A stretch of 64,000 nucleotides of DNA from Aromatoleum anaerobium (lineage in GTDB: Bacteria; Pseudomonadota; Gammaproteobacteria; Burkholderiales; Rhodocyclaceae): assembly GCF_012910705.2 (NCBI RefSeq), contig NZ_WTVG02000037.1, forward strand, positions 248,001-312,000, given 5' to 3'. Under the pieces are notes generated by a model. The model worked only from the letters and a program-made list of their open reading frames with translations. It ran no database searches and was not told the origin of the DNA. Position numbers and translations under genes: made by a program. Below, in pieces: positions 15,410-39,927 of the stretch (position 1 is its first letter; each line of letters begins with the position of its first letter).

Positions 15410-15460
15410 AGGCCGGAATTGGCGCAGCGGGCCCGATAAACACAGGACAAGAGACGAAAA

Positions 15461-16681: not shown

Positions 16682-16716
16682 ACGGGCGCCGGACACGAAG
16701 AGCACAGGAGAATCGC

Positions 16717-22546: not shown

Positions 22547-23127
22547 GGCGCGGTCGCGTAGTCGATGACGCCGACCGTTTCGCTGCCGGTAAAGGCCTGC
22601 CGCACGATCAGCGCGTTGAGGCGCCGGCCGACCTCGGCGTCGACGTATTTTTCGCCGCACTGCCCGCACAGGCCGGCGGGAACCTTCTTGATGACGTACA
22701 GCCGGCCTTCGAGACGGTAGTCGAAATTGCCGACGGTCACCTGCTTGATGGCGCCGCCGCAGAAGAAACACTGGGTGATCGAATCGGACATCGTCGGTTC
22801 TCCGGAGGAACGATGCAGGGCAGTGCGCCAGAGCGGCGGTGCCGGCACGTAGGCGTGGGTGACGACGAGCCAGTCGTCGGCGCGCGGGGCGGCGACCGCA
22901 TGAACCGGCTTGCCGTCGTGGAGGGCGCACAGCAGGTAGGCGGTCTCGCGCTCCGCGTGCCGGTGCTCCTCGATGATGCGGCCGCCGCGCAGCGCCGCTT
23001 CGATCTGCGCGACCTCGATCCGTCCCGCCATCAGCGAGCGGATCACGTGTTCGGACAGGACGTAGCGCGAGGCTTCGGCGCGCGCGGCGATCCATGCGGC
23101 GTCCGGGCCGGATTCGGAATGCGTCAT
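22543..23127 (-). CDS. DUF4258 domain fused to a YgiT-type zinc-finger domain
   Basis: A 194-residue continuous frame. Residues 1-112 look like a DUF4258 protein (SRYVLSEHVIRSLMAGRI; GKPVHAVAA; WLVVTHAYVP). Residues 113-194 are a YgiT/MqsA-like zinc-binding domain (CFFCGG and CGQCGEKY). The two are usually separate neighbouring genes resembling toxin-antitoxin pairs. An internal ATG at 22791 with GGAG nine bases upstream could produce the zinc-finger part alone. It overlaps both neighbours by 4 nt. Function is unknown; the fusion and the internal start are seen, and the toxin-antitoxin reading is inference. Confidence 0.7.
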   Translation of the reverse strand: MTHSESGPDAAWIAARAEASRYVLSEHVIRSLMAGRIEVAQIEAALRGGRIIEEHRHAERETAYLLCALHDGKPVHAVAAPRADDWLVVTHAYVPAPPLWRTALHRSSGEPTMSDSITQCFFCGGAIKQVTVGNFDYRLEGRLYVIKKVPAGLCGQCGEKYVDAEVGRRLNALIVRQAFTGSETVGVIDYATAP

Positions 23128-24398
23128 GACAGGGCCTCGTCCCGCAGGCGATGCGCGGCGAGCCCGCGCTCGGCGACGAACAGCGCGATCGCGAGCAGCG
23201 CGGACAGGGTCGCCAGCGGCTGGAGCGTGCCGTCGTAGGTTGCGCCGAGCAGCGTCGCGACCGAAAAGGCGCAGAGCATCGTCAGCGACCCCAGCAGGGC
23301 CGCCGCGGCACCGGCCTTTTCGGGGAAGGGCGCCACGGCGCCGCTCTGCGCGCACGGGCTGTTGATGCCATGCGCGAGCGTGACGAGAAAGTGCGCGACG
23401 ACGACCGTGGCCCAGTGCTGCAGGTCCAGCGCGAGCCCTGCGGCGAACGTCGTGCCCGCCGCGAGCCCGAGCGTGCTGCCGACACGAAGCGTGCGCGACA
23501 GCCCGTAGTGCCGCAGCAGGCGCCGGCACGCCTGCGTGCCGAAGAGATAGCCGAGCACGCCCAGTGCGAAGCAGTAGCCGAAGTAGCGCGTCGGCACGTG
23601 CAGCACGTCGATCAGCGCGAACGAGGCGCCGGATATGTAGACGAACACCATGCCGAAGGAGAGGCTGCCCGGCAACGCGTAAGCCCAGAACGCCGGGCTG
23701 CGCAGCAGCGCGCCGTAGTTACCGAGCAGCGTGGCCGGCCGCATCGCCGCGGGGTTGCGGCGCGGAACCGTCTCGGCGAAGCGCAGCACCGACGCGAGCC
23801 CGAGCGCCGCGCCGCCGAGCGTCAGCAGCGCGAAGTTGGCGCGCCAGCCGAAGGATGCCTGCAGCTGCGCACCGACGACGGGAGCGAGCAGCAGCGCCAC
23901 CGCGAGGATGCTCGTCGAGCGGGCGATCACGTGCGCGCCTTCGCCGACCGGGTAGGTGTCGCGGACGACGGCGCGGGCGATCACCGCGACCGTGCAACTG
24001 CCGGCAGCCTGCATGAAGCGGGCGACGAGCAGCGCGTCGATGCGCGTCGCGAGCGTGCAGGCGAGACTCGCCGCGGCATAGACCAGCACGCCGGCGAGAA
24101 GAATCGGACGCCGGCCGAAGCGGTCCGACAACGGTCCGCTGACGAGCTGCGACACCGCGACGCCGAGCGCGAACATCGACAGCGTCTGCTGCACGAGCGC
24201 CGGCGACGCATGGAAATACGACCCCAGTTCCGGCAGCGACGCCAGATACAGGTCCGTCGACAACGGCTGCAGCATCCAGAAGCCGGTGATCAGCCACAGC
24301 AGATGCGCAGTACGGCCTGGCAGCGGGCCTGCGGCAGGGCACCCGACGGCTGCGGCCGGCGCCCGGGGGGGCGCGGCGTGGCGACTCGCGTTGGTCAT
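23124..24398 (-). CDS. MFS transporter, Bcr/CflA drug-resistance type
   Basis: The protein has 424 residues with twelve predicted membrane helices. The N-terminal helix carries LQPLSTDLYLASLPELG, the typical Bcr/CflA start, and the loop after helix 2 reads GPLSDRFGRRPILL, the MFS signature. It is a proton-coupled exporter of small molecules. I chose ATG 24398 (MTNASRH) because the longer frame adds a charged tail without a signal. It heads the five-gene overlapping cluster, 119 nt downstream of the last bss-linked gene on the same strand, so it could be co-transcribed with bss. Confidence 0.85.
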   Translation of the reverse strand: MTNASRHAAPPRAPAAAVGCPAAGPLPGRTAHLLWLITGFWMLQPLSTDLYLASLPELGSYFHASPALVQQTLSMFALGVAVSQLVSGPLSDRFGRRPILLAGVLVYAAASLACTLATRIDALLVARFMQAAGSCTVAVIARAVVRDTYPVGEGAHVIARSTSILAVALLLAPVVGAQLQASFGWRANFALLTLGGAALGLASVLRFAETVPRRNPAAMRPATLLGNYGALLRSPAFWAYALPGSLSFGMVFVYISGASFALIDVLHVPTRYFGYCFALGVLGYLFGTQACRRLLRHYGLSRTLRVGSTLGLAAGTTFAAGLALDLQHWATVVVAHFLVTLAHGINSPCAQSGAVAPFPEKAGAAAALLGSLTMLCAFSVATLLGATYDGTLQPLATLSALLAIALFVAERGLAAHRLRDEALS

Positions 24399-24517
24399 TG
24401 CGCTACCCGCCGCGGAGCCCGGGTCCCCGACACGCATATGCCGCCGGTCAACGCGTTCAATACTCATGCTCAGGGGCTCGCGGGCGTCGCCTGGGTCCAA
24501 GCGAACACGGATACAGG

Positions 24518-25042
24518 CTATTGATCGATGCCAGTGAAGATTTCATTCTCTTCGGCAAAAATTCTCTTGAACTTTGCGCGCGCATCTGCACGTACGCGTT
24601 CGGCATGCTCATGGTCCAGCCCGCGTCCCTGAATCCACTTTTCCAGATTGACTCCGCCCGGCAGCCATTTCTCCAGCGTCTCCCGTTCATACATCCATGC
24701 CTTGTCCTTGACGCCAAGCGCGGCTAGGATTTCCCATACCTCGTCCTTGGTTTCATCGTGACAATAGACACACATGACACAGCGGTTGAGCTGGAATTCG
24801 GTGATCAGCTTGCGGTCGTATTTGACGGCGGGAATCTTCCTTTCCTCGACATAGGGGTCCAGCTTCCTCGCCAGCTCCTCGACTTCCTCGCGCAGGCCGA
24901 ACACGAGCCATTTTCCCCAATGTTCGAGATATTGCTTGTTGGTCAGCGGCTCGCCGCGCAGGGTGATGTAGTTGTAACGGTACTCGACGTGATCCAGGGG
25001 AACGACGAAGATGAAGTGCGACTCCGGCCGGTCGACGATCAT
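24518..25042 (-). CDS. Conserved bss-linked protein of unknown function (174 aa)
   Basis: The protein has 174 residues with no signal peptide and no membrane helix. It is rich in charged and aromatic residues and contains a CVMCVYCHDET segment (three Cys and one His within nine residues, near residue 90) that could bind metal. No family function is recognised. It lies 14 nt after the ThiS/MoaD-like gene and is the last gene of the bss arrangement. In relatives the bss operon carries additional genes named bssH onward; this is probably one of them, but I cannot give the exact letter. Confidence 0.7.
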   Translation of the reverse strand: MIVDRPESHFIFVVPLDHVEYRYNYITLRGEPLTNKQYLEHWGKWLVFGLREEVEELARKLDPYVEERKIPAVKYDRKLITEFQLNRCVMCVYCHDETKDEVWEILAALGVKDKAWMYERETLEKWLPGGVNLEKWIQGRGLDHEHAERVRADARAKFKRIFAEENEIFTGIDQ

Positions 25043-25056
25043 GGGGAGCCTCCCTT

Positions 25057-25338
25057 TCAGCCTCCGGCAATCGCCGGAATCACGTTGATGACATCGCCTG
25101 GGTTCAGTCTGGTCTTCATGCCATCGAGGTGTACGGCATTGCGGCCATTAATGAAGAATACGAACTGGGGCGAGATGCCTCCGTTGTCGTTCGTCAGCGC
25201 TGCAGCGAAGCCGGGATTGCGCTGGTCGATCAAACCGATCAAGGTGGCGACCGTGGCATTCGCCGGTGTATCGATGGCGAGTTCGCTTTGTTTGATGCCC
25301 AGTACGCCGAGCAGATTCAGCCTCACGTCGATCTTCAT
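25057..25338 (-). CDS. ThiS/MoaD-like small sulfur-carrier-type protein
   Basis: The protein has 93 residues. It has a beta-grasp pattern (MKIDVRLN... FVFFINGRNAV... LNPGDVINVIPAIAGG) and ends in Gly-Gly, the hallmark of MoaD/ThiS-type sulfur carriers and other ubiquitin-like proteins. The ATG at 25338 overlapped the native stop of bssG (ATGA) before an ISAs1-like element separated the two. No E1-like activating enzyme is adjacent. A link to benzylsuccinate synthase maturation is inferred from location only. It may now lack its native promoter because of the insertion. Confidence 0.8.
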   Translation of the reverse strand: MKIDVRLNLLGVLGIKQSELAIDTPANATVATLIGLIDQRNPGFAAALTNDNGGISPQFVFFINGRNAVHLDGMKTRLNPGDVINVIPAIAGG

Positions 25339-25376
25339 GCCGTCTCTCCCGATTTCAATACGCTCTCGGCGTGATC

Positions 25377-26658
25377 CAGGGCAATTGCACCGTTTTGTCA
25401 TAACCCGAGGCGCTCATATGGCCAGCCCGAGTAACTCTTCGCGAAAGTCATCCTCCATGCAGGCGAGCAGTCGCTTGGACTTGATGCTGGCCTTGCGGGT
25501 GGTGTTGTGGCGCAGCAGGTTCAGTACGATGTGGCGCAGCACCACGAAGTTGTTGGCCGCATAGCCTCGGCGCACACGGGACTGATCATCGTTGAACTGC
25601 ACATCGAGCGACCAGTGAAGCTGATTTTCGACCGCCCAATGGCTGCGCACGGCCTGCGCAATTCTGGCGGCATCTGCGGGCAGGGAACTGATGTAGTAAT
25701 GGCGCTCGACGCTGGTCTTGCCGTCGACGGTGCGTTCGCGCTCGACGAGCGCAAACGATTGCAGCCCGGCCCACTGCTCGGACTTGTACAACTGGCTGAC
25801 CGCATCATAGGCCCAGCAGCGGCGCACCTCCACACGGCCGTGGCCCTTGGTTTGTTCTTCGAAATGCGAAGCCGGCGCGATCTTTTCCGCCACGCCGGCC
25901 AGGGTGAGCAGAATCGAGTCGGTCAGCGTGGGGTGGTTGTCTTTGACGCACAACACGTAGTCTGCGCCACGACTACGGATGGTGCGGGCAATCGCTGCCT
26001 GGGTGCCCATCGCATCGATCGTGACGATGGTGCCTTCGAGCGCCAGCATGGCGAGCAACTCGGGAATCGCTGTTATCTCGTTGCTCTTCTGATCGGTGGC
26101 GCGCTGCCCCAGCACCAGACCCATCCCGGCGGCAAAGGCGCTGACCATGTGCAACGGCCCCGACGTATCCTTGCCGCCACTGCGCCGACTGGTCTTGCCA
26201 TCGATGGCCACCACGCTGTCCGGCGCCAGCGCCGGCACCAGCACGCCCACCCAGCGCAGAAAGGCCGCCTCGAAGGCCGCGGGATCGATCATCGCGAGCA
26301 CCCGGCAGAACGTGTCATGCGAGGGCACGCCCGCCTTGAGCTTCAGGAACTTGCGCAGCCAGGCCAGGTTGGACTTGCCCCACAGCGCCACATCCACGAA
26401 ATCGTTCGCCCCGCACAGCACCGCGCACACCGCCACCGTCAGCAACTCGGACAGATCGTGCCTGGCCTGCCGCTTGCTGCGCGGGTCGGGTACCGACACG
26501 AACACTTCGCTCACGGGCATCAACTGGCCTGTCTTCATGGGAGTCCCAAAAAGACAGTAAGCTACACAAAATATGACGTTGTGAACAGGGGCTCGCTAAG
26601 CGCATGATCGTAAACGGTTTACCTGTATCGGTTATGCATTTTAGGTGCGATTGCCCTG
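25377..26658 (-). mobile_element. ISAs1-family insertion sequence in bssG
   Basis: The element is 1282 bp. The terminal inverted repeats read inward as cagggcaattgcacc (left) and cagggcaatcgcacc (right), with further similarity in the next 15 bp. It is flanked by a perfect 10-bp target duplication, CGGCGTGATC, at 25367-25376 and 26659-26668. It encodes one transposase in the same direction as bssG. Intact ends and a perfect duplication suggest recent transposition. Confidence 0.93.
25414..26538 (-). CDS. ISAs1-family transposase
   Basis: A 374-residue DDE transposase. The N-terminal domain (VPDPRSKRQARHDLSELL) and catalytic-domain motifs (VAIDGKTSRR, IVTIDAMGTQ, CVKDNHPTL, VRSHWAVENQLHWSLDVQF with the catalytic Glu) are all present. 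It is full length for the family and lies between the inverted repeats. The frame has no stop or frameshift, so the element is potentially active. Confidence 0.93.
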   Translation of the reverse strand: MKTGQLMPVSEVFVSVPDPRSKRQARHDLSELLTVAVCAVLCGANDFVDVALWGKSNLAWLRKFLKLKAGVPSHDTFCRVLAMIDPAAFEAAFLRWVGVLVPALAPDSVVAIDGKTSRRSGGKDTSGPLHMVSAFAAGMGLVLGQRATDQKSNEITAIPELLAMLALEGTIVTIDAMGTQAAIARTIRSRGADYVLCVKDNHPTLTDSILLTLAGVAEKIAPASHFEEQTKGHGRVEVRRCWAYDAVSQLYKSEQWAGLQSFALVERERTVDGKTSVERHYYISSLPADAARIAQAVRSHWAVENQLHWSLDVQFNDDQSRVRRGYAANNFVVLRHIVLNLLRHNTTRKASIKSKRLLACMEDDFREELLGLAI

Positions 26659-27195
26659 CGGCGTGATCCAGGTCGCGATAGCCGTTCTTGCACACCAGCC
26701 GATGCAGGGCCTCCATCGCCAGATTGCGATGGACCGCCACCGCTGCCTCGATATTCTCGAAATACAGCTGCAATGTTCGATCGCCGTAGGTTTCCAGTTC
26801 GCAGCCGAGATAGATTCCGAAATTCCGGCCGTCGCCGGTTTCATCCATGCTGCGGCAACAGCGTCGATAAAGGGCGGGATAGCGACGTTGCAACTCTTCC
26901 TGCCAATTGCTTTCCACCGTGACGATGATGCCGATGAGCGGGCTGCTTGATAGCGGCGGAATCAAGTCGTCCATGCGCGCGTATTTTTCCGCAAGCAGGT
27001 TGCGGCCAACCGCCTCGGCCTGTTCCAGGTCGGCAAGATAAGAGGCGAGCATCGGTTGCGTCCACGTTTCAAATAGGCTGGAACGGATCGTCTTGAAGTT
27101 GTCGGGAGCGCTCTGACAGGGGGCATGCCGTGCGCTCCTGACGCGGACGAACATCTGCCATTCGGCTTCCAGCACCTGGTCGAGCAAGAATGTAC

Positions 27196-28935
27196 TCACT
27201 TCTGCGGCGTCCTCGATTCGCGCATTTCGCTGACGATCAATTCGCCAAACAGCTTGGGCAATTGCTCGGTCTTGTCGACGAACTTCACGAGACTGCCGTA
27301 TTCGTCGCGTAGCGATTGCTTGGAGGACAGACTGCAACTGATGCCCAGCGTGAGCAGGCTGACACCGTTGCCCTTGCAGTACTTGATGGCATCCGCCACG
27401 CCGCACCCCCAATTGGAGGCTCCGTCGGTGATGTGGACCAGCAGCGTTTTTTTCCCCGGTATACGGGTATTCAAGGCCGTGGCGATAATGGCCTCGCCGG
27501 AAGCCGTCCTCCCGTGGGGCAGCACCGTCAGCATGCGGCCACCACGATAGATTTCCGTGATGCGGCAGGCGTTCCTGACCTCGTTGTAGGCGAACAGTCG
27601 CGCGTTGCTCGTGTATTCCAGGATCGCCGTGAACAGCGTCTGGTAGATCATCTCCGCCTGGTCCCACTGAGTCGGATCCGCCATCGACCCGGTCGCGTCC
27701 ACGAGCAGCACGACATTCTTTCGCATGTCGAACTCGTGCTTCTTTTGTTGGAACACGGCACCGGTCGTGTGGGCGCGGTAAAGCCGCCGACTATGAATTT
27801 TCCCCGAACTGAGGCCGCGGTTGAAAACACTCCGGCGGTCGGTGGCGTTCCGCACCACTTGCTGCAGCTGGTGCAAAAGGTGCCGATCGACGCGGTTGCG
27901 CGCCATCATGACGATGTCGTTACCCTCGACTCGCGCGACATTCTCGAAGTTTGCGACGTTGCCCTTGATCTGATCGGTGAAATCCCGGTTCTTCTGCGGC
28001 AGCGAAGCTTCGATCAGGTTGGCGTAATTGACGATGGTTGCCTTGACCGCCGCCTGCTCCGCCTCTTCCTGGGCCAGTTCATCATCCTCGCCCATGTCGG
28101 GCATCATGAACCGATCGCTGCGGTCGCCCGGCCAGAACCGGATGTGCCCGAGCACTTCGCGCCAAAGCTTTGCGTAGAGATCAAGGCGGAAATCACAGCG
28201 ATCGCTGACGCTCGAGAGCGCCGGACAGTCGTGGCGCAGGGCCGGCACGATGCTGTTCATGATCTGCATCGGCTTGCTGTAATACTGATCCAGGCTGCCG
28301 CGCATGACGAGGCCACCCAGCGTGAGGTCGCTGTGGCCCTGTTTGTAGAGTTCCGGATCGCGGTGGGCCGCCAAGCGCCACCACAAGTGCAGCATCTCGG
28401 ACAGGGTGGGCGGCTTGATCAGGCTCTTCAGCGTCTTGACGATACGCCAGTCGCGTGCCACCTCGGCGTAGTAGCCGAGCACGCTCCTGTTGGCGAGGCC
28501 GTCGACATAGACGGCCTCGCAGACATTGAAGAACATGTCGAACTTGTATCCGTACTGCGTCGGCGGCTGGACGCGCAGCCTGAACATTTCGCGCAGCCGT
28601 TCGGACCACTCGACGCGTTTGTACGCTTCCTGCACCATGATGCCGACCATCAGATCGGTCTTTCCCGCCGGCACCGGATACGTGCCCATGATCGGTGTCG
28701 GATCGAGGGCGAGCGCATTGTCGAGTTCCATTCCCGACCAGACGATTTCACCGACATTGCGGCCGATGAAAGTCGACAGTTTGCGAATGGCGACCAAAAG
28801 CTTCACCAACTCGACGGATTCGATCGGCGACTTGTCGCGACGCCAGAAGTCCGAATAACCCTCCTCGCCGGGAATGACGAAACGCTTGACGTCCCCCGTG
28901 CCGTTCATTAGCCGAAGTGTGGTGTCGTAGGTCAT
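27196..28935 (-). CDS. bssF: BssF, von Willebrand factor A domain protein of the bss operon
   Basis: The protein has 579 residues. The C-terminal third is a vWA domain with a MIDAS-like motif (LLVDATGSMAD near residue 405) and LVHITDGASNW further on. The N-terminal part is helical and contains an acidic stretch (DMGEDDELAQEEAEQ). Pairing with the MoxR-type ATPase BssE is the usual AAA+/vWA chaperone arrangement, as in NorQD and CbbQO, so the pair probably helps assemble or maintain benzylsuccinate synthase. That is inference from the family. The stop overlaps the bssG start, and 14 nt separate it from bssE. Confidence 0.88.
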   Translation of the reverse strand: MTYDTTLRLMNGTGDVKRFVIPGEEGYSDFWRRDKSPIESVELVKLLVAIRKLSTFIGRNVGEIVWSGMELDNALALDPTPIMGTYPVPAGKTDLMVGIMVQEAYKRVEWSERLREMFRLRVQPPTQYGYKFDMFFNVCEAVYVDGLANRSVLGYYAEVARDWRIVKTLKSLIKPPTLSEMLHLWWRLAAHRDPELYKQGHSDLTLGGLVMRGSLDQYYSKPMQIMNSIVPALRHDCPALSSVSDRCDFRLDLYAKLWREVLGHIRFWPGDRSDRFMMPDMGEDDELAQEEAEQAAVKATIVNYANLIEASLPQKNRDFTDQIKGNVANFENVARVEGNDIVMMARNRVDRHLLHQLQQVVRNATDRRSVFNRGLSSGKIHSRRLYRAHTTGAVFQQKKHEFDMRKNVVLLVDATGSMADPTQWDQAEMIYQTLFTAILEYTSNARLFAYNEVRNACRITEIYRGGRMLTVLPHGRTASGEAIIATALNTRIPGKKTLLVHITDGASNWGCGVADAIKYCKGNGVSLLTLGISCSLSSKQSLRDEYGSLVKFVDKTEQLPKLFGELIVSEMRESRTPQK

Positions 28936-28949: not shown

Positions 28950-29810
28950 TTAGGCAGCGATGTATTGAACGTACTCTGTCTTGCTTTTTTCCACCTTCCC
29001 CAGATTGACGTGCAGGGACAGCAAAACCGATTCGAGCGTCTTCTTGTCTGTCTGGAGGCTCGTCACGATGGCTTCGCGCAGCGTTCCGCCGGCGGCGATC
29101 ATCTCGCCGAGCATCAGGATCTTGCGGGTTGAAACGTCGACGCCGAGGTCGGGATTGGCGCGAATGCTGTTCGCCACCGCGATGATTTCCCTCGCCTGCT
29201 CATTCGTCACGCCGGTCTTCTTTTCCAGTACCTCGACTTCCACTTCGTTCGGCAGGAAATCCATCGTCGTGACATAGAAGCGGTCGCGCAGGGCGGGGTC
29301 GAGAAGCTCGGTGCCGACGAATTCGGCGCCTTCGTTGAGCGTCGCGAAGAAAACAACGCCCGGCGCGACCTGCAGCAGTCCCAGTTCGTCCATCCATACC
29401 TGACGATCGTCGGAGAGGATGGAGAACAACATGTTCAACGCCTTCGGATGTTCGGGGCGATTAATCTCCTCGAGATGGATGACGCAGTTGGGTGTCTGGA
29501 TGGCCTGCGGGAAGAGGAACTGCTTGTAGCGGGTCTCCCCGTTCTCCAGTGCGTATTCGCCAAACAACTGTCCCGGCTCGGACAGGATGCCGATCTGGAA
29601 GGTCGCCAGCGGCAGCCTGTTGACGGCGGCGTATTGCCGCACCAGCGAGGATTTCCCGCAGCCCTGTTTCCCGACCACCAGGACATTGACGGGATGCTTC
29701 CGGGATATCTTGGCAAATTTATCGAGAAAGCTCTGATTTTCCGTACTTACGTAGTAGTAAGGGTCGACTTCCGGGACGAACAGGCCATTTGCGCTAGGAG
29801 AAATTTTCAT
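28950..29810 (-). CDS. bssE: BssE, MoxR/NorQ-type AAA+ ATPase
   Basis: A 286-residue AAA+ ATPase of the MoxR branch. It has Walker A GKQGCGKSS (about residues 47-55), Walker B IHLEEINRPEH, and a sensor region FFATLNEGAEF. It is known as an essential component for toluene metabolism in Thauera and is thought to act as a chaperone for benzylsuccinate synthase with BssF. It starts 47 nt after bssB. The frame is intact, but it lies downstream of two insertion elements and so is probably poorly expressed from the bss promoter. Confidence 0.9.
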   Translation of the reverse strand: MKISPSANGLFVPEVDPYYYVSTENQSFLDKFAKISRKHPVNVLVVGKQGCGKSSLVRQYAAVNRLPLATFQIGILSEPGQLFGEYALENGETRYKQFLFPQAIQTPNCVIHLEEINRPEHPKALNMLFSILSDDRQVWMDELGLLQVAPGVVFFATLNEGAEFVGTELLDPALRDRFYVTTMDFLPNEVEVEVLEKKTGVTNEQAREIIAVANSIRANPDLGVDVSTRKILMLGEMIAAGGTLREAIVTSLQTDKKTLESVLLSLHVNLGKVEKSKTEYVQYIAA

Positions 29811-29857: not shown

Positions 29858-30103
29858 TCAGACGTGGTCGCGGAAGCTCAGTTTTCCTTCCTCGTGCCGG
29901 GAGCAGGTCGTGTTCTCGACGTCCCTCAGCCAACGTTTCCAGACGCCCCCCATCGCGTGACGGTTGGCGGTGCATTGCCCGCGGTGCGGATCGGTGGGAT
30001 CGGGGGTTTGCCACTTGCAACTCCGGCACGGCCTCGCGGTGCCGACCTCGACATGCGGCTGGTTTTGCAAGCTCTTTTCTGCTTCCATGTTGTAGCTCTC
30101 CAT
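29858..30103 (-). CDS. bssB: BssB, beta (small Fe-S) subunit of benzylsuccinate synthase
   Basis: The protein has 81 residues with Cys in ARPCRSCKWQ, GQCTANRHAMGG and TTCSRH. These fit the small HiPIP-like [4Fe-4S] subunit that binds the BssA surface, and the length equals that known for Thauera BssB. I chose ATG 30103 (MESYN); the frame is open for six more codons upstream. An IS1595-like element lies between it and bssA, so it is intact in sequence but cut off from the operon promoter. Confidence 0.88.
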   Translation of the reverse strand: MESYNMEAEKSLQNQPHVEVGTARPCRSCKWQTPDPTDPHRGQCTANRHAMGGVWKRWLRDVENTTCSRHEEGKLSFRDHV

Positions 30104-30168
30104 ATCGTCTCGTATAACCATAAACAGAGGGGAGCAGGACGCCGCCCCCCTCTTTAGCGGATTTTCTT

Positions 30169-31220
30169 GGCTATGTCACCGTTAGCTGTGGAACCCTCCC
30201 GTGGCGGTCGGGCTCTTACCTCTGAGAGCGAAACCGCGCGGGGTGCCCCATGAAAGCTCATGAATTTGAACGGTGGATCGAGCAGCTGCGGGCGTTGACC
30301 CGGCGGCAGCGCGAACAGGTGAAAGCGTTGCTGGCAAAAGACGATGACGGGGCGCGGTGCAGCACGCTGATCGAATCCCGCCTGGGTGGGGACGGGGGCT
30401 GTCCCCACTGTGGGGCGAAGAGTTTGTATCGGCACGGCCTCGCGGGCGGGCTGCAACGTTACCGGTGCAGAAGTTGCCACAAGACGTTCAACGCTCTCAC
30501 CGGCACGCCATTGGCGAGGTTGCGTAAAAGGGAGAAATGGTTGGCTTACGGCCAGGCGATGCTCGATTCGCTGACGGTGCGCAAAGCGGCAGCGGTGCTT
30601 GGCGTGCACCGGAACACGACTTTTCGTTGGCGCCATCGCTTCCTCACGTGGGCGAAGAACGACCGCCCGGCACATCTGCAAGGTATTACCGAAGCGGACG
30701 AAACGTATCTCCTCGAGTCGGACAAAGGCAGTCGCCGACTGGCTCGCAAGCCGCGCAAACGCGGCGGCGCTGCAACCCAGCGCGGCCTCTCCAACGAGCA
30801 GGTCTGCGTTCTCGTCGCCCGCGATCGCACGGGGCAGACCCTCGATTTCGTCACCGGCAAGGGGCAGATCACCAAGGCTCAACTCAAGACGGTTCTGCCG
30901 CCCGTTCTTGATCCGGATGCGCTGTTGGTGAGTGACGGGAATCCGACCTATCGCTACTTCGCGCTCGATACCGGACTCTCCCATGAGGCGGTCAATTTGA
31001 GCGCCGGCATCCGGGTCCGGGGCGCCTACCACGTCCAGAACGTCAATGCTTACCACAGCCGTCTCCACGCCTGGCTCGGCATCTTCCATGGTGTCGCCAC
31101 AAAGTACCTCCCAAACTACTTGGGCTGGCGCCGCGCCTTGGATGCTCAGCGTATTCGCTCCCCGGATACCCTGCTGGCAGCCGCATTGGGGCAATTTCAA
31201 CAGCGAACGGTGACATAGCC
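30169..31220 (+). mobile_element. IS1595-family insertion sequence at the bssA-bssB junction
   Basis: The element is 1052 bp. Both ends read inward as GGCTATGTCACCGTT, a perfect 15-bp inverted repeat. A perfect 8-bp target duplication, ATTTTCTT, lies at 30161-30168 and 31221-31228. The right copy covers part of the bssA stop codon (31227-31229), so the element landed at the end of bssA without changing its protein. Its transposase points against bss transcription. Eight-bp duplications are typical of the IS1595 family. Confidence 0.93.
30250..31218 (+). CDS. IS1595-family (ISXO2-like) transposase
   Basis: The protein has 322 residues. The N-terminal zinc ribbon has CPHCG and CRSCHK, followed by a helix-turn-helix (AAAVLGVHRNTTFRW) and a DDE domain with EADETYL, LVSDGN, and HVQNVNAYHSRL...LPNYLGWRR near the C-terminus. 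The frame is intact, and its 3' end reaches into the right inverted repeat, ending two bases before the element does. Confidence 0.93.
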   Translation: MKAHEFERWIEQLRALTRRQREQVKALLAKDDDGARCSTLIESRLGGDGGCPHCGAKSLYRHGLAGGLQRYRCRSCHKTFNALTGTPLARLRKREKWLAYGQAMLDSLTVRKAAAVLGVHRNTTFRWRHRFLTWAKNDRPAHLQGITEADETYLLESDKGSRRLARKPRKRGGAATQRGLSNEQVCVLVARDRTGQTLDFVTGKGQITKAQLKTVLPPVLDPDALLVSDGNPTYRYFALDTGLSHEAVNLSAGIRVRGAYHVQNVNAYHSRLHAWLGIFHGVATKYLPNYLGWRRALDAQRIRSPDTLLAAALGQFQQRTVT

Positions 31221-31895
31221 ATTTTCTTAGATCTCGACGTTCAGGAACTCGAGATCGGACGCGCTGAAGTCCTGTTCCTGGCGGGCGATGATGGTGTTCT
31301 GCCCGTAGGTTGGAATGTCGACGAACCGGGCGCTGTAGCCGGAAACGCGAACGATGAGGTCATGGTGCTTCTCGGGTTCGCGCTGCGCGGCACGCATTTC
31401 GTCCGTGCTGACGACATTGAACTGAACATGGTCGATATTCAGGTCGTGCCAAGTCTTCATGTACGAGTTCCAGATTTCGAAACCGTGCCTGGAGCGCATG
31501 ATCGGCACCGACAAGCGCTGGTTCAGCAGATTGCCCTTCTGGTTCTTCTGCACCTTGGACACTGAGCGCAACACGGCTGTCGGGCCCTTCTTGTCAGTGC
31601 CCATGTAGGGCGAAATGCCACCGTCGTCTGCCGCCTCGCCACCGAAACGGCCGTCGGGCGTGGGGCCCGTGCGCGAGCCCACTTCCATGTACAGTCCGAC
31701 GGCCTGACCGGTCGGCATGACCGGACCTCCGGAGTAGTTGGTGATCTTGCGCATTTCGCCGCCGATAATCTCCTCGTAGAAGCGGGTGATGATGCCGTCG
31801 GCGTAATCGTCGTCGTTGCCCCACTTCGGCGCCCGCTTGAAGTCGACGCGCATTTCCTCGAAGCCTTCCCAGTTCGCCTTCAATGCCTGGCTGAG

Positions 31896-33412
31896 AGGCT
31901 GTGAAAAATCCCCGGCCAGTTATATGCCTTTGGTATAATTAGGTCTTGCTACGAGGTCTGGATTTGCGCCGATGACGAAGACGCGAGCACGGGTGCTGCT
32001 GCCCAACCGGGGGCAGATGGAGTTTCGGGCGAGTGACCTGGAGTCACTGCTGCCGGAGGGGCATCGGGCGCGCCTGGTGTGGGCGTACGTCGAGCGGCAA
32101 GACCTGTCACGGTTCTACGCCGGGATTCGTGCGGTCGATGGCGGGGTGGGCCGCTCGGCAATCGCGCCGGAGATTTTGCTGGCGCTGTGGTTGTACGCCA
32201 CGCTCGACGGGGTGGGCAGCGCGCGGGCGGTGTCACGGCTGATCGAATCGCATGACGCCTACCGCTGGTTGTGCGGCGGGGTTCAGGTCAATCACCACAC
32301 CCTTTCGGACTTTCGCAAGGATCAGGGCGAAGGGCTGGACGAGTTGTTGAGTGTGAGCATCGCCAGCCTGATGGCGGCCGGGGTAGTCAAGCTCAAACAG
32401 GTGGCGCAGGACGGGATGCGTGTGCGCGCCAGCGCCGGGGCGGGCTCGTTTCGCCGCAAGGAGAAGCTCGAAGGCTACCTGGAGGCGGCGCGTGCCGAAG
32501 TCGCGCGGCTCAAAGCCGAGGTGGAGGCGGACCCGGCGCAGGCCGAACGGGCGCGGGAAGCGGCCCGGCTACGGGCGGCGAAAGAGCGTGAAGCGCGTCT
32601 TGAGAAAGCGCTGGCGCGGCTGCCCGAGATCGAAGCGATCAAGCAGCGGCAAGGCAAAAACCCCGACCAGGCGCGCGCGTCGATGACCGATGCCGAAGCG
32701 ACGGTGATGAAGATGGGCGACGGCGGCTTTCGGCCGGCGTACAACCCGCAACTGGCGAGCGACGCCGACTCGCTGGTGATCGTGGGGGTCGAGGTGGCCA
32801 CCGTCGGCAGCGACCAAGGGCAGATGGTGCCGATGATCGAGCAGGTCACCGCGCGCTGCGGTCGGCTGCCCGAAGCCTGGCTGGTCGATGGCGGCTACGT
32901 CGGACACGAGCAGATCGAGCAGGCGAGCCAAAGCACCGTCGTCTATGGGCCGGTGCCGCAACCCAAGAACAAGGCGGTCGATCCTCACCAGGCGAAGGCC
33001 GGCGACAGCGAAGCGGTGGCGGCCTGGCGGCAACGGATGGGCACGGACGAGGCGAAGGTCATTTACAAGCGGCGAGCGGCAACGGCCGAATGCGTCAATG
33101 CGCACAGCCGCAACCGCGGCCTGCAGCAGTTCCGGGTGCGGGGTCTGGCGAAGGTCAAGTGTGTGATGCTGATCTTTGCTTTGGCGCACAACCTGATGCG
33201 CATGGTCAGCCTCGCACCGGAATTGCTCGGGGTAGGGATAGGTGCGTCTGCCGTTCCCGGAATCGGGGTTTAAGGGGCGAAAAATGGGGAAAAACGTCAA
33301 ATGAACCGTCGATAGCAGCACAAACGGTGCAAAAACCCTATCGCGCCCAGCAAAACGGCGTTAACCCCGCTCGCGCGTCTAATCGGTCCTGCGAACGAAA
33401 GATTCACAAACT
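31896..33412 (+). mobile_element. IS1182-like insertion sequence inside bssA
   Basis: The element is 1517 bp. The ends read inward as AGGCTGTGAAAAATC and AGTTTGTGAATCTTTC, imperfect inverted repeats. A perfect 5-bp duplication, CTGAG, lies at 31891-31895 and 33413-33417, and removing the element plus one copy restores bssA in frame. The single transposase gene runs opposite to bssA. A TATAAT at 31934-31939 may drive it. Confidence 0.9.
31972..33273 (+). CDS. IS1182-like transposase
   Basis: The protein has 433 residues. The N-terminal part matches the InsH/DUF772-type domain (YAGIRAVDGGVGRSAIAPEILLALWLYA). A long charged, probably coiled-coil insert (about 165-230) follows, and the C-terminal DDE part contains VEVATVGSDQGQM, WLVDGGYVG and RRAATAECVNAHSRNRGLQQF. 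The frame is intact. Assignment to IS1182 rather than a neighbouring IS4/IS5-like group rests on overall layout only. Confidence 0.85.
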   Translation: MTKTRARVLLPNRGQMEFRASDLESLLPEGHRARLVWAYVERQDLSRFYAGIRAVDGGVGRSAIAPEILLALWLYATLDGVGSARAVSRLIESHDAYRWLCGGVQVNHHTLSDFRKDQGEGLDELLSVSIASLMAAGVVKLKQVAQDGMRVRASAGAGSFRRKEKLEGYLEAARAEVARLKAEVEADPAQAERAREAARLRAAKEREARLEKALARLPEIEAIKQRQGKNPDQARASMTDAEATVMKMGDGGFRPAYNPQLASDADSLVIVGVEVATVGSDQGQMVPMIEQVTARCGRLPEAWLVDGGYVGHEQIEQASQSTVVYGPVPQPKNKAVDPHQAKAGDSEAVAAWRQRMGTDEAKVIYKRRAATAECVNAHSRNRGLQQFRVRGLAKVKCVMLIFALAHNLMRMVSLAPELLGVGIGASAVPGIGV

Positions 33413-35366
33413 CTGAGTTGTTCGAGGGTGTACTTCTTCTCCTCGAACACCAGCTTCTTGATGGCCACGAGGGAGTTCGCCGCGACGATCGTCGTAATCG
33501 GGTTGTGCCAGCCGTTGGGTTGCTCGGACAGGGCGCAGGCGTCCATACCGAGTTCCATGCAGCCGTCGTCGATTGCGGACACGAAGGGCATCTGCAGGAA
33601 GCGTTGCTCGAAGTAGCGGGACACGTCCTTGGTGCTGATACATAGGTTGATCGCGTACTGGTACTGCTCGCGGAAGGCCTCCCAAACGTCCTCGAAGGTC
33701 TTCAACGACGCGAGATCACCGGTCTTCGGGCCCAGCTGCATGTCGGCGTAGGACCAGTCGTAGCCGCCGTCAAGCGTGATTTCCAGCAGCTTGGCCGGGA
33801 AGATCGAGCCGCCGCCTTCCGAACGGGTCTTTTGCGTCTTGCGGCGGCCGTGGATGCCGGGCGACATGCACAGCACGTTGACCCAGTTGTGGGCTTCCTC
33901 GTCGGTGGCGCCGTTGCCGTTGAGGCTGAACTTGGCGTATTCCTTCATCTGCTCCGTGCCAATCTCGTCGTGCTTGATGGACGGATAGCCGAGACCGTCG
34001 CGGATGCACTCGAAAACCCAGCGCAGCGTCTTTTCACGGTTCTTTTTGGAATAGCGGAAGACGATCGACGGCTCGGCCGTGCGGATCCGCTTGGCCGCCT
34101 CGAGGATGGCATCGGTCATGTCGTTGCAGGCGTCCTCGCCCTTGGCGTTCGTGCCGCCGACGGTGAGGATGAACAGATCGTTTGAACCCGGGAAGATTTC
34201 GCGATAGGCGCGCGACTTGCCGGCGCCGTGCTCGGAAATCTTCAAACGTTCCATCTCGACGAGTTCCACCGCGTCCATGTGGCTCATCGGCTGGAATTTT
34301 TTGTCGATGACGGAGGCCTTGTAGTACGGCCACAGCAGGGTGTCTTCCTTCTGGGCGTAGCCGCTCGCGTAGCGCTCGATGGCGTGGCAGATCAGGAATG
34401 TGAAGAACTTCGCCTGCATCGCATCCTTGAGGCCCTTGCAGGGTTCGGCGGGAATGCGATGGCAGATGTCGGCGATTTCGAGCAGCTCGGCCTGACGCTT
34501 CGGATCGGTTTCGAAGTTCTCGGCGACGATCTTGCACAGACGGGCCTGACGGCGCGACCAGCTGATGACCGCCTTGCAGGCGATGACCATCGCCTTCCAG
34601 TTGTCGATCTTGGCGATGTTGTCCAGGCCCTTGGTGCCGTCCCAGGGGAAGGTGGACATATCGGCCTGGGCTTCGGCGATATGCTTCTCGGCGAGCTTGA
34701 TGCGCGCTAGCAGCCCGTCTTCCAGGACGGTTTCGTAGGGTGGCACAATGCTGTTGTAACCGGAAGCGAAGGAGGGCGCCTCCATACTGCTGACCTGGTA
34801 CATGCGGCCGAGATCCGCCGGGTCGAAGTAGGGCTGGCACTTGCTTTGCAGGCTGTGCGGCTTCCAGTACTCGTTGATCGCCGCCGCCTCGTCGGCCGGC
34901 TGTGGCGAGTAGTCGCTCCTCAGGTAGTCCTGAACCGCCATGTGGGACAGTTCTGGATACAGCGGGAACATGTTGGGATCTTCGGCATGGTAGCCGACGA
35001 TGAATTCGTCCTCTTGAAGCACCAGGGTCGACTTGTTCAGCACGTTCGCCAAGCCGAGCGCGCGACGGATGGCTTCCGGCTGACCCACGCTGGCCTTGTG
35101 CGCTTCGGTCAGATAGCGCATGCGCTCGATGCCGGCCGTGACGCTCTTTTCGATGAACTCGCCGGCGGATGCATGCTTCCAGCGGCAACGCTCCTTCAGA
35201 CGCTTGGTTCTCGCGGTCGAAGGCTTCTGCAGATGCTCGTGCAACTCGTCGGACGGAATTTTCGCTTCCGCCGGATCTTCCGGCGTGAAATTGAGCGTCT
35301 TCCCCTTATATTCCAACACCTTGGCGCTTACTAGTTCGTTCATGACTGTCTCCTCTAGCTTTATGT

Positions 35367-35549
35367 TTATCGCTTCGCGTGAAAGGCTTCGCATCGCGTG
35401 CTGTTCTCGAATATGGGCTTGGAGAGCCAGTACTTGCCTTTTTCATCTTCCTTTTCCCGCACGCAATCAGCCTTGCCGGCTTCGTAGTCATCAGCGCCCT
35501 TGGGGACAGGAAAGAAGTTTGCGCACTGCTTACATGTGGTGGTTTCCAT
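35367..35549 (-). CDS. bssC: BssC, gamma (small Fe-S) subunit of benzylsuccinate synthase
   Basis: The protein has 60 residues with four Cys (Cys6 and Cys9 in CKQC, Cys29, Cys53), the ligands of the HiPIP-like [4Fe-4S] cluster of this small subunit. BssC is needed for stable BssA. AAGGAG lies upstream of the ATG, 18 nt after bssD and 23 nt before bssA. It is upstream of all the insertions and so should still be transcribed from the bss promoter. Confidence 0.9.
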   Translation of the reverse strand: METTTCKQCANFFPVPKGADDYEAGKADCVREKEDEKGKYWLSKPIFENSTRCEAFHAKR

Positions 35550-35567: not shown

Positions 35568-36566
35568 TTATGTAATACACCCAGTCCCGGCATCGCGAGT
35601 AATCTCGTGTCTGTCCGTCGTGATGCCAACCAAGCCGCCGATCGTCACGCTCTTGATGCCCGCGAGCTTCAAACCTTTAACCAGTGGCACTACCTTCTCG
35701 GGCGGGTTCTCTTCCACCCCCAAGTATTGGTATTCCTTTTCCCTGCCCAGGGAGCGATATTTGCCTTCTCCATAGACGTGGTAATTGAGAATATCGACAC
35801 CCTCCAGCTGCATGGCGTGGCGACTCAAATAACTGATGTAGTTGTCGAAATCCTGGGGGGAATCGTTGAATCCAGGGATCACGGGAATATGGATGCGGAT
35901 ATTGGCCTTGGATTGCATGAGATGCTCGATGTTGTCGAGTATTGGCTGCAGTGGCCAACCAACGACTTCTTCGTGTTTCTTTGGATTCAGCGACTTCAGG
36001 TCGACGATGAAAAGATCGACAAATTCCAGCAGCGGCTGAATAGCCCCCCAGTTCTTGGGAAAACAGGAAGTCTCGATAGCGACGTGGACGTTGCGCTCCT
36101 TGATTCTGCGCACCAGTTCCAATGTGAATGCGGGATGGTAGAGAGGATCGCCACCGCTGATGGTGACGCCGCCACCGCTATTGCGGTAGAAGGGGGAGTC
36201 GGACAACGCTTCGCGCAGGATGTCCTCGACGCTCATGCGCTGGCCGACGATCGACCTCGCCTCGGTCAGACAGGCGGCGACACAGCGCATGCAGCGTTGA
36301 CAGTCCGTCCGGTCGAGCTCGACTCTCATGCGGCCATCCGACTGACGCACCAGGCGCGATGTTCCGGCCGGACAGACTGCGATGCATCTGCCGCAGCCGA
36401 CGCAGCGGGCGGGGTCATAATAGAACTCCTGCCGCGCATCCTGGGTCTCCGGGTTGTGACACCACGGACAGTGCAGCGGGCAGCCTTTCAGGAAGATCGT
36501 CGTCCTGATCCCCGGCCCGTCCTGCAGGCTGAACCTCTGTATTTCGGTAACAAGAGGAATTCTCAC
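35568..36566 (-). CDS. bssD: BssD, benzylsuccinate synthase activating enzyme (radical SAM)
   Basis: The protein has 332 residues from GTG 36566, with AGGGG six bases upstream; this length agrees with Thauera BssD (331). The radical SAM motif is GCPLHCPWCHNPE (Cys-x3-Cys-x2-Cys). An inserted ferredoxin-like region has two cluster motifs (CVGCGRCIAVCP; CQRCMRCVAACL). GGGVTISGGDPL is the GGE-like SAM-binding segment. It installs the glycyl radical in BssA. A longer in-frame start would run into the promoter region. First gene of the operon, divergent from tdiS. Confidence 0.93.
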   Translation of the reverse strand: MRIPLVTEIQRFSLQDGPGIRTTIFLKGCPLHCPWCHNPETQDARQEFYYDPARCVGCGRCIAVCPAGTSRLVRQSDGRMRVELDRTDCQRCMRCVAACLTEARSIVGQRMSVEDILREALSDSPFYRNSGGGVTISGGDPLYHPAFTLELVRRIKERNVHVAIETSCFPKNWGAIQPLLEFVDLFIVDLKSLNPKKHEEVVGWPLQPILDNIEHLMQSKANIRIHIPVIPGFNDSPQDFDNYISYLSRHAMQLEGVDILNYHVYGEGKYRSLGREKEYQYLGVEENPPEKVVPLVKGLKLAGIKSVTIGGLVGITTDRHEITRDAGTGCIT

Positions 36567-36658
36567 GACAGCCCCTGCGTTTATTGCGAAGGTTGTTGAT
36601 CCGCGTGCATCGGAGGAATCCGGTTCCGGAGCACCCGGGCCTAACGTCGATGTGGTGT

Positions 36659-36704
36659 ATTTAAGCATCGGCTCTCGGTGCGACCAATTGGTGCGAACAC
36701 TTAA
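36659..36704 (-). promoter_or_regulatory. Putative TdiR-type promoter of the bss operon
   Basis: On the minus strand, ttaagtgttcgcaccaattg (36704-36685) is followed after 18 nt and a 2-nt step by TTAAAT (36664-36659). The same arrangement occurs at the bbs and lipoprotein/RND promoters. The motif is partly palindromic (cgaccaattggtgcg). TdiR binding upstream of bssD is established for this group, but the exact bases are my inference. The remaining intergenic DNA up to tdiS (36705-36915) must hold the tdiS promoter; no clear element was seen there. Confidence 0.78.
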
Positions 36705-36915
36705 GGAGAGGAGGGATTGCCCTTAATGCGGCCGGCGCGCGGTGCGCGCACAATCGTGGCAGCGTCGGGCCGCGGAACGGGAGCGATATCCCGCGGCTGT
36801 CGATGCGCCGGTTGCGCCGGTTCGAGCACTATCGTACTGTGGAAGTGGCAGACTGTACGAAGACTGACTGTTTGGTCGACAGAACGTACGGGGCGGCCGC
36901 AAGGAGGCGATGCGC

Positions 36916-38553
36916 ATGATGGATTACGCGTTCGATGTGGAGCAGGAGGACGAGCAGGACGAGGATGCCTCGGTCGGCTACGAGGCGATCTTTCGCAACA
37001 CGCCCGTAGCAATCTGCCATTTGCGAAACCGCATAATCAGACGCTGCAACACGCGATACGAGGAATTGTTCGGCTACGGGCGCGGTGAGCTCGACAAGCA
37101 GTCGGTGCGGGTGCACTACCCCAGCGACGACTCGTTTGCAACGATCGGCGAGAAATACGGCCACTTCTTCGAGCGGCACCATACTTTCAAGGACGAGCGG
37201 CCATTCGTCCGCAAGGATGGAACGCTGATCTGGTGCATCGTCAGCGGCACGCTGCTCGATCCGACCGAGCCGAAGCTCGGCAGCATCTGGGTGGTGCAGG
37301 ACATATCGGAACATATACGGCTCGAAGAGGAGCTGAAGGCCGACGTCGAAAAGCTCGAAATTCTGGTGCAGCAGCGGACCGTGGAGCTGAGCCGGCACGT
37401 GGCGAGCCTCAAGCAGGAGGTCGTCACGCGCAAGCGCGCCGAGGAGGCCGCCAACGAGAATCGCGAGAAATACCAGAAGCTCTTTCACATGCTGCCGATC
37501 GGGATCTCGATTACCGACGCGCATGGCGACATTCTCGAGGCCAATTGCCAATTCGCCGAAATGGTCGGCTCGCGGCGGATTCAACCGGAGAGCTGGCGCA
37601 AGCTGCCGCTGCGATTCTTCCTGCACGACGAGACGGAAATCCCCCGCCACCAACTGCCCTGGCAAATCCGCGACTGTCAGAAGGATTCCATCAACAACAT
37701 CGAAATCGGCATGCGCGACGAGAAGGGTCGCAAGCTGCGCTGGCTCAGCGTCAGTTCATCCCTCCTCGAGCGCAAGCACAAGCAGTTCGTCGTCGCGGCC
37801 TTTACCGACATCACCTACCGCAAGCGAATCGAAGAGCTGGAACGGCTGCGCCATGCGGAGCTGACCCGGCTCGGCCGGATCAACTCGATGGCTGAAATGG
37901 CAGCCGCCCTCGCGCACCAGATGGGGCAGCCGCTGGTGTCCGCCGTCAATTACCTGAACGGCTGCCGGCTTCGGCTCGAGCGCGTCGAAGGGGTGGAGGA
38001 GATCACCGAGTCCGTTGGCCTGGCGCTCAAGTATCTCGAGCAGGCCGGCGAGATCCTGCGTCACGTCAAGGAGTTTGTCTGCAAGCACAAGCCGGACAAG
38101 GAGCCGGAAGACATCAACGAAGTGATCAAGGACGCGCTTTCGTTTCTCAATTTCGAAGTCCGCCGTCACGACGTCGAGGTCGATCTCCGTCTGCTGCCGA
38201 ATCCGCCCCTGGTCCCGCTGTGCAAGGTCGAGATCCAGCAGGTACTGTTCAACTTGATGAAGAACGGCATGGAGGCCATGACGACGCTGCCCGCCGAGGC
38301 GCGGAAGCTGGTCATCGGCAGCGAAATCGTCGGCGAGGGCAGGGCGGTGAAGGTGTTCGTCCAGGACCACGGGACGGGGCTCGAGAGACGGTCCGCGAAG
38401 CGTGTCTTCGAACCCTACTTTTCGACCAAGCCGGACGGGATGGGCATAGGGTTGACCATTTGCCGGTCGATCGTCGAATCGCACGGCGGGCAGCTTTCTT
38501 TTTCCAGAATCGGCAAGGGCGGGTCGCGCTTTCAATTTACCTTGCCGATGTAG
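36916..38553 (+). CDS. tdiS: TdiS, sensor histidine kinase of the toluene-responsive two-component system
   Basis: The protein has 545 residues with no membrane helix, so it is cytoplasmic. It has a PAS domain at about 20-140, a coiled-coil linker (LKADVEKLEILVQQRTVELS), a second PAS domain at about 180-300, then a HisKA domain with AALAHQMGQPL (His at about residue 334) and a HATPase domain (NLMKNGMEAM; DHGTGLE; GMGIGLTICRSIVESHGG). AAGGAGG lies eight bases before the ATG at 36916; the ATG at 36910 is too close. TdiSR activates bss and bbs in response to the aromatic hydrocarbon. Confidence 0.9.
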   Translation: MMDYAFDVEQEDEQDEDASVGYEAIFRNTPVAICHLRNRIIRRCNTRYEELFGYGRGELDKQSVRVHYPSDDSFATIGEKYGHFFERHHTFKDERPFVRKDGTLIWCIVSGTLLDPTEPKLGSIWVVQDISEHIRLEEELKADVEKLEILVQQRTVELSRHVASLKQEVVTRKRAEEAANENREKYQKLFHMLPIGISITDAHGDILEANCQFAEMVGSRRIQPESWRKLPLRFFLHDETEIPRHQLPWQIRDCQKDSINNIEIGMRDEKGRKLRWLSVSSSLLERKHKQFVVAAFTDITYRKRIEELERLRHAELTRLGRINSMAEMAAALAHQMGQPLVSAVNYLNGCRLRLERVEGVEEITESVGLALKYLEQAGEILRHVKEFVCKHKPDKEPEDINEVIKDALSFLNFEVRRHDVEVDLRLLPNPPLVPLCKVEIQQVLFNLMKNGMEAMTTLPAEARKLVIGSEIVGEGRAVKVFVQDHGTGLERRSAKRVFEPYFSTKPDGMGIGLTICRSIVESHGGQLSFSRIGKGGSRFQFTLPM

Positions 38554-38623
38554 GAAGGGGTCTGGCGCAGGCAGGGAGGCCGAAGAGCCTTCGGGGCGCG
38601 GGTAATGAACAAAGGAGGAGTCG

Positions 38624-39280
38624 ATGCAGGTGGAAGATACTTCGCCGACCGTGTTCGTCGTTGACGACGAGGAGTCGGTCCGGCATTCCCTGAACTGGTT
38701 GCTCAGTTCGGTTGCACTCGATGTGAAAATGTATGACTCGGCGCAAGCATTTCTCGACGCCGATATTTCCTGTTCCTATGGCTGTCTGATTCTTGATGTC
38801 CGGATGCAGGCGCTGAGCGGTTTGCAACTTCAGGAGGCGCTTTGCGCGCGGGGTTTCAGCCTGCCGATCATTTTTCTTTCTGCGTACGGTGATGCGCAGA
38901 TCGGGGCGCAAGCGATCAAGAAAGGTGCCATCGACTTTCTGCAGAAACCTTACCGCAATCAGGATCTGCTCGATGCCGTCAATGCGGCGCTGACGCTGAG
39001 CAAGGAGGCGATGGGCAAGCAGAGCGAGAAGCTCAAGTATCGCGACTGTCTCGAAAGCCTCTCACAGAGAGAGAAGGAAATTCTCGATCTGGTTGTCGGG
39101 GGGAACAGCAGCAAGGAAATTGCAAGAGTTCTGGGGATCAGCCATAAGACCGTGGAGGCGCATCGAAGTCGGCTGATGAGCAAGCTCGGGGTTAAATCAT
39201 TGGGTGAGTTGATTCAACTGGCGATGCTCACGAGCAGCCATTGCCGCGACTGTAGATGGCTTTCCCGCCCTGGCAAGTAA
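38624..39280 (+). CDS. tdiR: TdiR, response regulator with LuxR-type HTH
   Basis: The protein has 218 residues. The receiver domain carries acidic VVDDEES at about 13-18 and the phosphoacceptor Asp in CLILDVRMQ (about residue 58). The C-terminal LuxR/FixJ-type HTH is LSQREKEILDLVVGG...KTVEAHRSRL. AAAGGAGG precedes the ATG, 70 nt after tdiS. It is the presumed binder of the three promoter motifs described here. All three target operons lie in this window, two of them over 25 kb from tdiR. Confidence 0.9.
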   Translation: MQVEDTSPTVFVVDDEESVRHSLNWLLSSVALDVKMYDSAQAFLDADISCSYGCLILDVRMQALSGLQLQEALCARGFSLPIIFLSAYGDAQIGAQAIKKGAIDFLQKPYRNQDLLDAVNAALTLSKEAMGKQSEKLKYRDCLESLSQREKEILDLVVGGNSSKEIARVLGISHKTVEAHRSRLMSKLGVKSLGELIQLAMLTSSHCRDCRWLSRPGK

Positions 39281-39335: not shown

Positions 39336-39620
39336 TCAGTTTCGCTTCAAGTCGCGATAGAAGTTCTCGTGCGGCCCAACAGCTTCGAGATAGACCAGGC
39401 GCACCTGGTCAGCGACGGTATAGCCGAGAAGGTAGAGCTGGCCCTGGCTGCGGAACTTCACGACCCGCAAGTCCGCAAGGTCGCCCTTCTTGCGTTCCCC
39501 GCCGTTCGGGTCGGCGGCCACCCCTGCCACGGCTTGGTCGACGTCGGCCGCGACGTTGTCGTGGAGCTTCTTGTACTGGCGACCAAACCGGCGGGTCTGG
39601 ACGACTCCGTAATCACTCAC
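39336..39620 (-). CDS. RelE/ParE-type toxin
   Basis: A 94-residue protein of the RelE/ParE fold (TRRFGRQYKKLHDNV; DLRVVKFRSQGQLYLLGYTV). It is probably the toxin of a type II module. Its start overlaps the stop of the upstream antitoxin gene by 4 nt (ATGA). Target (ribosome or gyrase) cannot be told. The pair sits between tdiR and the PaaY-like gene and may be a small mobile or stabilising module. Confidence 0.8.
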   Translation of the reverse strand: MSDYGVVQTRRFGRQYKKLHDNVAADVDQAVAGVAADPNGGERKKGDLADLRVVKFRSQGQLYLLGYTVADQVRLVYLEAVGPHENFYRDLKRN

Positions 39621-39856
39621 TGCTGCCGGCTTCGTGGCACGAACGGGGTGGCGTCCTCGCGGGGCTCCGCCATCGAGACCAAGGCCTCGGCGACAAAGCT
39701 GACCGGCAAGTCGGGGTTGTCCAGGGCAGCCCGGCCGACTTTCGCCCAGAACTCGATCTGGCCGGCAATGGTGCGATGCTCGGCGGCGGCATCAGCCTTC
39801 GCCTGGTTGTAGAGGGTCTGGTCAATTCGAATCGAGGTGGTGGTGGGGGTGGACAT
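39617..39856 (-). CDS. ParD-like antitoxin
   Basis: A 79-residue protein with an N-terminal ribbon-helix-helix-like segment (TTTSIRIDQTLYNQAKADAA) and a C-terminal part ending in basic residues. It matches the ParD-like antitoxins that neutralise RelE/ParE toxins and autoregulate the operon. ATG 39856 was chosen; a start six codons upstream is possible. It is translationally coupled to the toxin gene. Confidence 0.75.
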   Translation of the reverse strand: MSTPTTTSIRIDQTLYNQAKADAAAEHRTIAGQIEFWAKVGRAALDNPDLPVSFVAEALVSMAEPREDATPFVPRSRQQ

Positions 39857-39927
39857 GGCAGGCTCTTGCTGCAATTGTGGTAAATCAATCGTAGCTTAGG
39901 CCAGCCCCCAAGTCGATCTGGTTATCG

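Follow-up and report, generated by a model that had tools for sequence, protein, structure and literature searches.

Does a bssA gene that is cut by an insertion sequence (IS) still give benzylsuccinate synthase, and what has become of the toluene operon around it? The question is raised by a 64,000-nucleotide stretch of the Aromatoleum anaerobium genome (assembly GCF_012910705.2, contig NZ_WTVG02000037.1, positions 248,001 to 312,000), hereafter the window, in which bssA (35343-31227, minus strand) is interrupted by an IS1182-like element of about 1.5 kb. The gene is a widely used marker for anaerobic toluene degradation. The answer we favour, with a probability of about 0.92, is that the only bssA found in this genome was recently inactivated by transposition of the element into codon 643/644, and that the operon is in early decay.

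The split itself, as the original prediction described it, is directly visible in the sequence. Deleting the element in silico, together with one of the two target duplications, gives a single bssA frame of 864 codons with no other stop, and this holds whether the duplication is taken as 5 or 3 bp. The interruption point, codon 643/644, separates a 5' part (33414-35343, minus strand; residues 1-643), which matches the Pfam domain PFL-like (E 5e-142) and has TutD (4pkc) as best PDB match, from a 3' part (31227-31894, minus strand; residues 644-864), which matches Gly_radical (E 1e-27). For both pieces the alignment with 4pkc chain A runs from end to end (residues 1-641 and 644-864). Cys492, within VLCMSPG, is on the first fragment and Gly828, within RVSGYS, on the second; both occupy the places predicted for the catalytic cysteine and the radical glycine and are conserved in the six aligned relatives (these residues are alternatively numbered 493 and 829; PMC4848970). 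The truncated 5' open reading frame (ORF) has 654 aa, i.e. 643 native residues plus an 11-residue tail, RVCESFVRRTD, read from the IS; the N-terminal piece is short of 221 residues. For the 3' piece, the longest listed ORF has 218 aa and starts at a TTG codon (L647). The window gene resembles BssA/TutD by its conserved catalytic cysteine and radical glycine and by its neighbours (bssD, C, B, E, F and G), but it differs in that its frame is broken at residue 643/644 by the IS, without a continuous product. Judged from its sequence, it is by descent a pseudogene of bssA and does not encode a working BssA. Loss of benzylsuccinate synthase would be the expected outcome of such an insertion, and we strongly infer that this locus, as had been claimed, cannot make the active enzyme.

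In the relatives the gene is, with one exception, whole. When queried with the 864-residue product, 21 of 22 relative bssA loci (L045-L052 and L054-L067, some genomes being included twice, from two collections) formed one continuous frame across the site. Only L066 (G116:C1) did not, owing to a frameshift close to its 3' end, and it is not split at the insertion site of the window; it differs from its near-identical twin L067, which is not frameshifted, by four gaps and no mismatch, and the frameshift is likely a sequencing indel, a broken gene being possible. Eight loci were found with bssA in the same place and six of them were aligned; the two left out (L051 and L052) are continuous across the insertion site. 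At the insertion place, the five named Aromatoleum relatives, A. buckelii (L045), A. toluvorans (L046), A. toluclasticum (L047), A. tolulyticum (L048) and A. toluolicum (L049), all show one CTCAG (CTGAG when read on the plus strand) in a bssA without interruption, and the sixth locus, from a betaproteobacterial metagenome-assembled genome (L050), reads CTCAA. In a family sample of 297 genomes, a BssA match with E <= 1e-60 was present in 11, this genome included; the open frame is of 687 aa here versus 806-897 aa in the other 14 matches. Some genomes have multiple copies: a genome of the same genus (G249) carries two bssA genes with open frames (L058 and L064), and in G116, which belongs to another genus, there are four matches (L060, L065, L066 and L067), forming two near-identical pairs on two contigs.

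The limits of the element were set by comparison of its copies. There are 16 full-length matches in the genome, five at 100% (the bssA copy among them), eight at 98% and three at 83%, and the placement of the ends is identical in all 16. The terminal repeats are imperfect, as predicted (GAGGCTGTGAA / GAGTTTGTGAA), and short, with 14 of 30 terminal positions matching between the two ends. The original prediction placed the element at 31896-33412, within a perfect 5-bp duplication, CTGAG. This pentamer is indeed found on both sides (31891-31895 and 33413-33417). However, read in the orientation of the element, the flanking 5-mers are equal in only 11 of the 16 copies, the five disagreements all concerning the outermost base (left flank in L015 and L018; right flank in L010, L011 and L013), whereas the inner 3-mers are equal in 16 of 16 (15 TGA, 1 GGA). 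A G beside the left end and a C beside the right end are constant in all copies. An empty site was decisive for one of the five discordant copies: L015 has GTGAG on the left and CTGAG on the right, and the corresponding site in five relatives (L090-L094, the only partial match L095 being left out) reads a single GTGAG, so that the outer C belongs to the element and not to the target. Two other discordant copies gave no such empty site: matches elsewhere to the flank of L013 stop 27 bases short of the site, and the flank of L011 has numerous matches in each of the 17 genomes. The 5-bp duplication was therefore rejected. The placement that fits best is 31895-33413 (1519 bp, plus strand), with ends GAG...CTC; the duplication is then the 3-bp TGA (31892-31894 and 33414-33416), and the preferred context is C-TGA-G. 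C-TGA-G or a near match occurs at all 16 copies (L003-L018, around 1496-1505 and 3013-3022), always with the same orientation to the target; the element thus has a sharp target preference.

The transposase ORF (31972-33273, plus strand; 433 aa) is antisense to bssA and contains DUF772 and DDE_Tnp_1_6, which we take to be the marker domains of the IS1182 family. With a length of about 1.5 kb, imperfect terminal repeats and ends that are defined in 16 of 16 copies, the element fits that family; its 3-bp duplication, strong preference for C-TGA-G and fixed orientation set it apart. IS1272, which is placed in the IS1182 family, is reported to replace a stem-loop target (PMC5678879).

Whether another bssA, or an nmsA, could compensate was a question that the window could not answer. 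A search of the whole genome with PF02901 (a draft of 4,561,799 bases in 40 contigs; completeness 100, contamination 1.57) found one PFL-like gene, the one present here in two pieces, and neither a second bssA nor a further glycyl radical enzyme of the PFL-like kind. The bssD activase is thus left without another evident partner of that kind.

The insertion appears to be recent, although not for the reason first given. The original prediction argued from the absence of any other lesion, which is true of bssA itself but not of the operon (see below). Recency is supported instead by the identity of the IS copies and by unrelaxed selection on bssA. The copy in bssA and the one on contig C1 show 0 mismatches over 1517 positions. 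Omega for bssA versus A. buckelii is 0.040, as compared with 0.033-0.083 for A. buckelii versus the other four Aromatoleum, and the changes unique to the window gene are 10 synonymous and 1 nonsynonymous. Neutral drift would be limited to roughly the last 13% of the branch, since no more than one nonsynonymous change would be improbable over a longer neutral period (P about 0.055 at 13% and 0.007 at 20%).

The operon is ordered bssD-C-A-B-E-F-G-orfX-orfY on the minus strand (36668 to 24518), and its alignment with the relatives revealed two interruptions besides that of bssA. The first, an IS1595-family element of 1052 bp (30169-31220, plus strand), lies between the bssA stop and bssB, flanked by an 8-bp duplication, ATTTTCTT, at 30161-30168 and 31221-31228, which overlaps the bssA stop codon and leaves it intact. 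It has a DDE_Tnp_IS1595 domain, and equal 8-bp flanks were found in its three full-length copies (a partial one, L022, was left out), 8 bp being the rule for the family. The second, of 1282 bp (25377-26658, minus strand; transposase 25414-26538), is in the 3' end of bssG, between copies of a 10-bp duplication, CGGCGTGATC (25367-25376 and 26659-26668). Its DDE_Tnp_1_assoc and DDE_Tnp_1 pair is one that we take to denote the ISAs1 family; the 10-bp flanks are equal in all three copies at 100%, partial matches of 66-77% being left out of the count. The native part of bssG (26659-27195, minus strand) has lost its end: the frame enters the ISAs1 element and stops at 26315-26317, so that a read-through tail takes the place of the native C-terminus of BssG, which in A. 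buckelii is ESVLKSGEAA. Within 8298 bp of native operon DNA there are thus three IS, each of a different family, where 0.04 would be expected from 22 full copies (16 + 3 + 3); the Poisson probability is about 1e-5, or 0.0002-0.003 if 60-150 IS are assumed genome-wide, the estimate being post hoc and based on the 22 copies of these three types rather than on all the IS of the genome. A Pfam scan of 40 window ORFs, chosen mostly from the ORF lists and not exhaustive, found transposase domains in three, all within the bss operon. The presence of two further IS, one of which alters BssG, suggests that selection no longer protects the operon well.

The sequence of events that we propose is the following. 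The IS1182-like element would have transposed into codon 643/644 of the sole bssA found and, as a result, full-length BssA would be absent. One fragment would keep the catalytic cysteine and the other, if made at all, the radical glycine, and no benzylsuccinate synthase would be formed. The remaining bss and bbs genes would then be poorly induced by toluene, because in strain CIB benzylsuccinate rather than toluene is the proposed trigger of TdiSR (PMC5874301). The operon would be under weakened selection, in the lineage or in culture, at a first stage of decay. On this scheme the strain would neither attack toluene by the bss route nor induce the pathway well with it. Several points weigh against the scheme. 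The genome is a 40-contig draft, which leaves some room for a second bssA outside the assembled sequence. The age bound is rough, as it is derived from few substitutions in one gene. Low omega for bssE and bssF argues against a long decay of the operon. Lastly, the order of the three insertions cannot be read, because all three IS types have copies of about 100% identity elsewhere, and another gene may have been broken before bssA.

This last point leads to the alternative that survives best, although we hold it to be doubtful: the bss operon was already non-functional, for instance because of the ISAs1 insertion in bssG or for want of toluene, and the element entered bssA afterwards, when the operon had become dispensable. 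The accumulation of three IS in 8.3 kb, with the same post hoc proviso, is what such a history could produce. In strain CIB, moreover, disruption of bssF abolished growth on toluene and the authors allow downstream bssG, orfXY or bssI as the cause (PMC5874301). Against a prior loss of function stands the low omega, to the relatives, of bssA as well as of bssE and bssF; the unreadable order of insertion gives it no support either.

The insertion could also be reversible, by precise excision in some cells, or harmless, if the two pieces made a working BssA; toluene degradation would then be kept as a rare or conditional trait. We consider either case very improbable. Removal of the element does restore the exact frame, but this is expected of any insertion accompanied by a duplication. 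A two-piece enzyme has a parallel of sorts, since there are spare glycyl radical proteins from which a Gly-bearing C-terminus is supplied, and GrcA models match the bssA 3' fragment, weakly and below their cut-offs. Expression of this fragment would, however, be poorly provided for: a simple consensus scan detected no sigma-70-type promoter-like site in 31850-33460, and an outward promoter carried by the IS was rejected on this basis, while the TTG start of the longest listed ORF and the lack of 221 residues on the N-terminal piece both speak against a functional pair. The split does not recur in any of the 22 loci of the relatives, the frameshift of L066 being further downstream.

An assembly artefact that misplaced the element into bssA is equally improbable: the element is multi-copy, identical to one other copy, and the assembly is in 40 contigs, but both flanks are bssA, collinear with the relatives and with the usual duplication, which a wrong join would not achieve, the identical C1 copy differs in its flanks (CGGAG instead of CTGAG), and the window sits inside a contig of 601,786 bases.

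What we describe is therefore a well-supported case, on sequence grounds, of a natural knockout that occurred recently in the one bssA found; its mechanism and kind are well known, and it would amount to ordinary gene breakage. Inactivation of catabolic genes by insertion sequences is common. In the open-access literature we found neither a report of an IS inside bssA nor a toluene growth test for A. anaerobium, but absence there proves little. The main use of the case is as a caution against inferring toluene degradation from gene presence: a gene survey would score both fragments as bssA, next to open bbs and regulatory genes, though no enzyme is expected. The strain, naturally bssA-null but retaining its bbs and tdi genes, would also be suited to testing benzylsuccinate as the inducer and the role of BssG. 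The interest of the finding is moderate and mostly for specialists of anaerobic hydrocarbon degradation and for marker-gene surveys.

The other bss, bbs and tdi genes that were checked are open and resemble those of the relatives. On the minus strand are the radical SAM activase gene bssD (35568-36668), bssC (35367-35549; 60 aa), the beta subunit gene bssB (29858-30121; BssB_TutG, a listed ORF inside which the native start may lie), bssE, coding for an AAA ATPase (28950-29810), bssF (27196-28935), and orfX, ThiS/MoaD-like, with orfY (24518-25401). On the plus strand are the tdiS-like sensor kinase and tdiR-like regulator genes (36910-39280) and the genes of benzylsuccinate beta-oxidation, bbsABCDEF, a small ORF and bbsGH (9398-17487); BbsA and BbsB score above the NCBIfam cut-offs. 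A fourth insertion was considered between bbsF and bbsG and rejected, the extra DNA being that small ORF (15125-15409), which is conserved and probably bbsJ. The arrangement is like that of Azoarcus/Aromatoleum sp. CIB, with convergent bss and bbs operons, tdiSR adjoining bssD, and orfX-orfY after bssG; it differs by the three IS in the bss operon and by a Fic-domain gene near bbsH (PMC5874301). In CIB, according to the same source, bssD-L appear to be co-transcribed.

A few side observations concern the neighbourhood. The Fic/DOC-domain gene (17610-18974, minus strand) lies between bbsH and a convergent gene, and tblastn at E <= 1e-15 gave no match to it in the loci of nine relatives (L045-L049 and L105-L108). 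Past orfY, a major facilitator superfamily transporter gene (23124-24500, minus strand) has a match, among the nine loci compared, in A. buckelii (L045) only. A ParD/ParE-like toxin-antitoxin pair (39336-39874, minus strand) adjoins tdiR, and an S-adenosylhomocysteine riboswitch (52579-52647, minus strand) lies upstream of an adenosylhomocysteinase gene. This genome has a homologue of pyrogallol hydroxytransferase (large subunit), the type to which resorcinol hydroxylase belongs; among the 17 genomes of the genus, this one included, no other matched it at E <= 1e-100, which would be expected of A. anaerobium LuFRes1, a resorcinol degrader. Finally, contigs C37 and C35 of this genome (L081 and L082; 609-2288) carry molybdopterin-enzyme genes at the same offset near their start, which are 88.5% identical.

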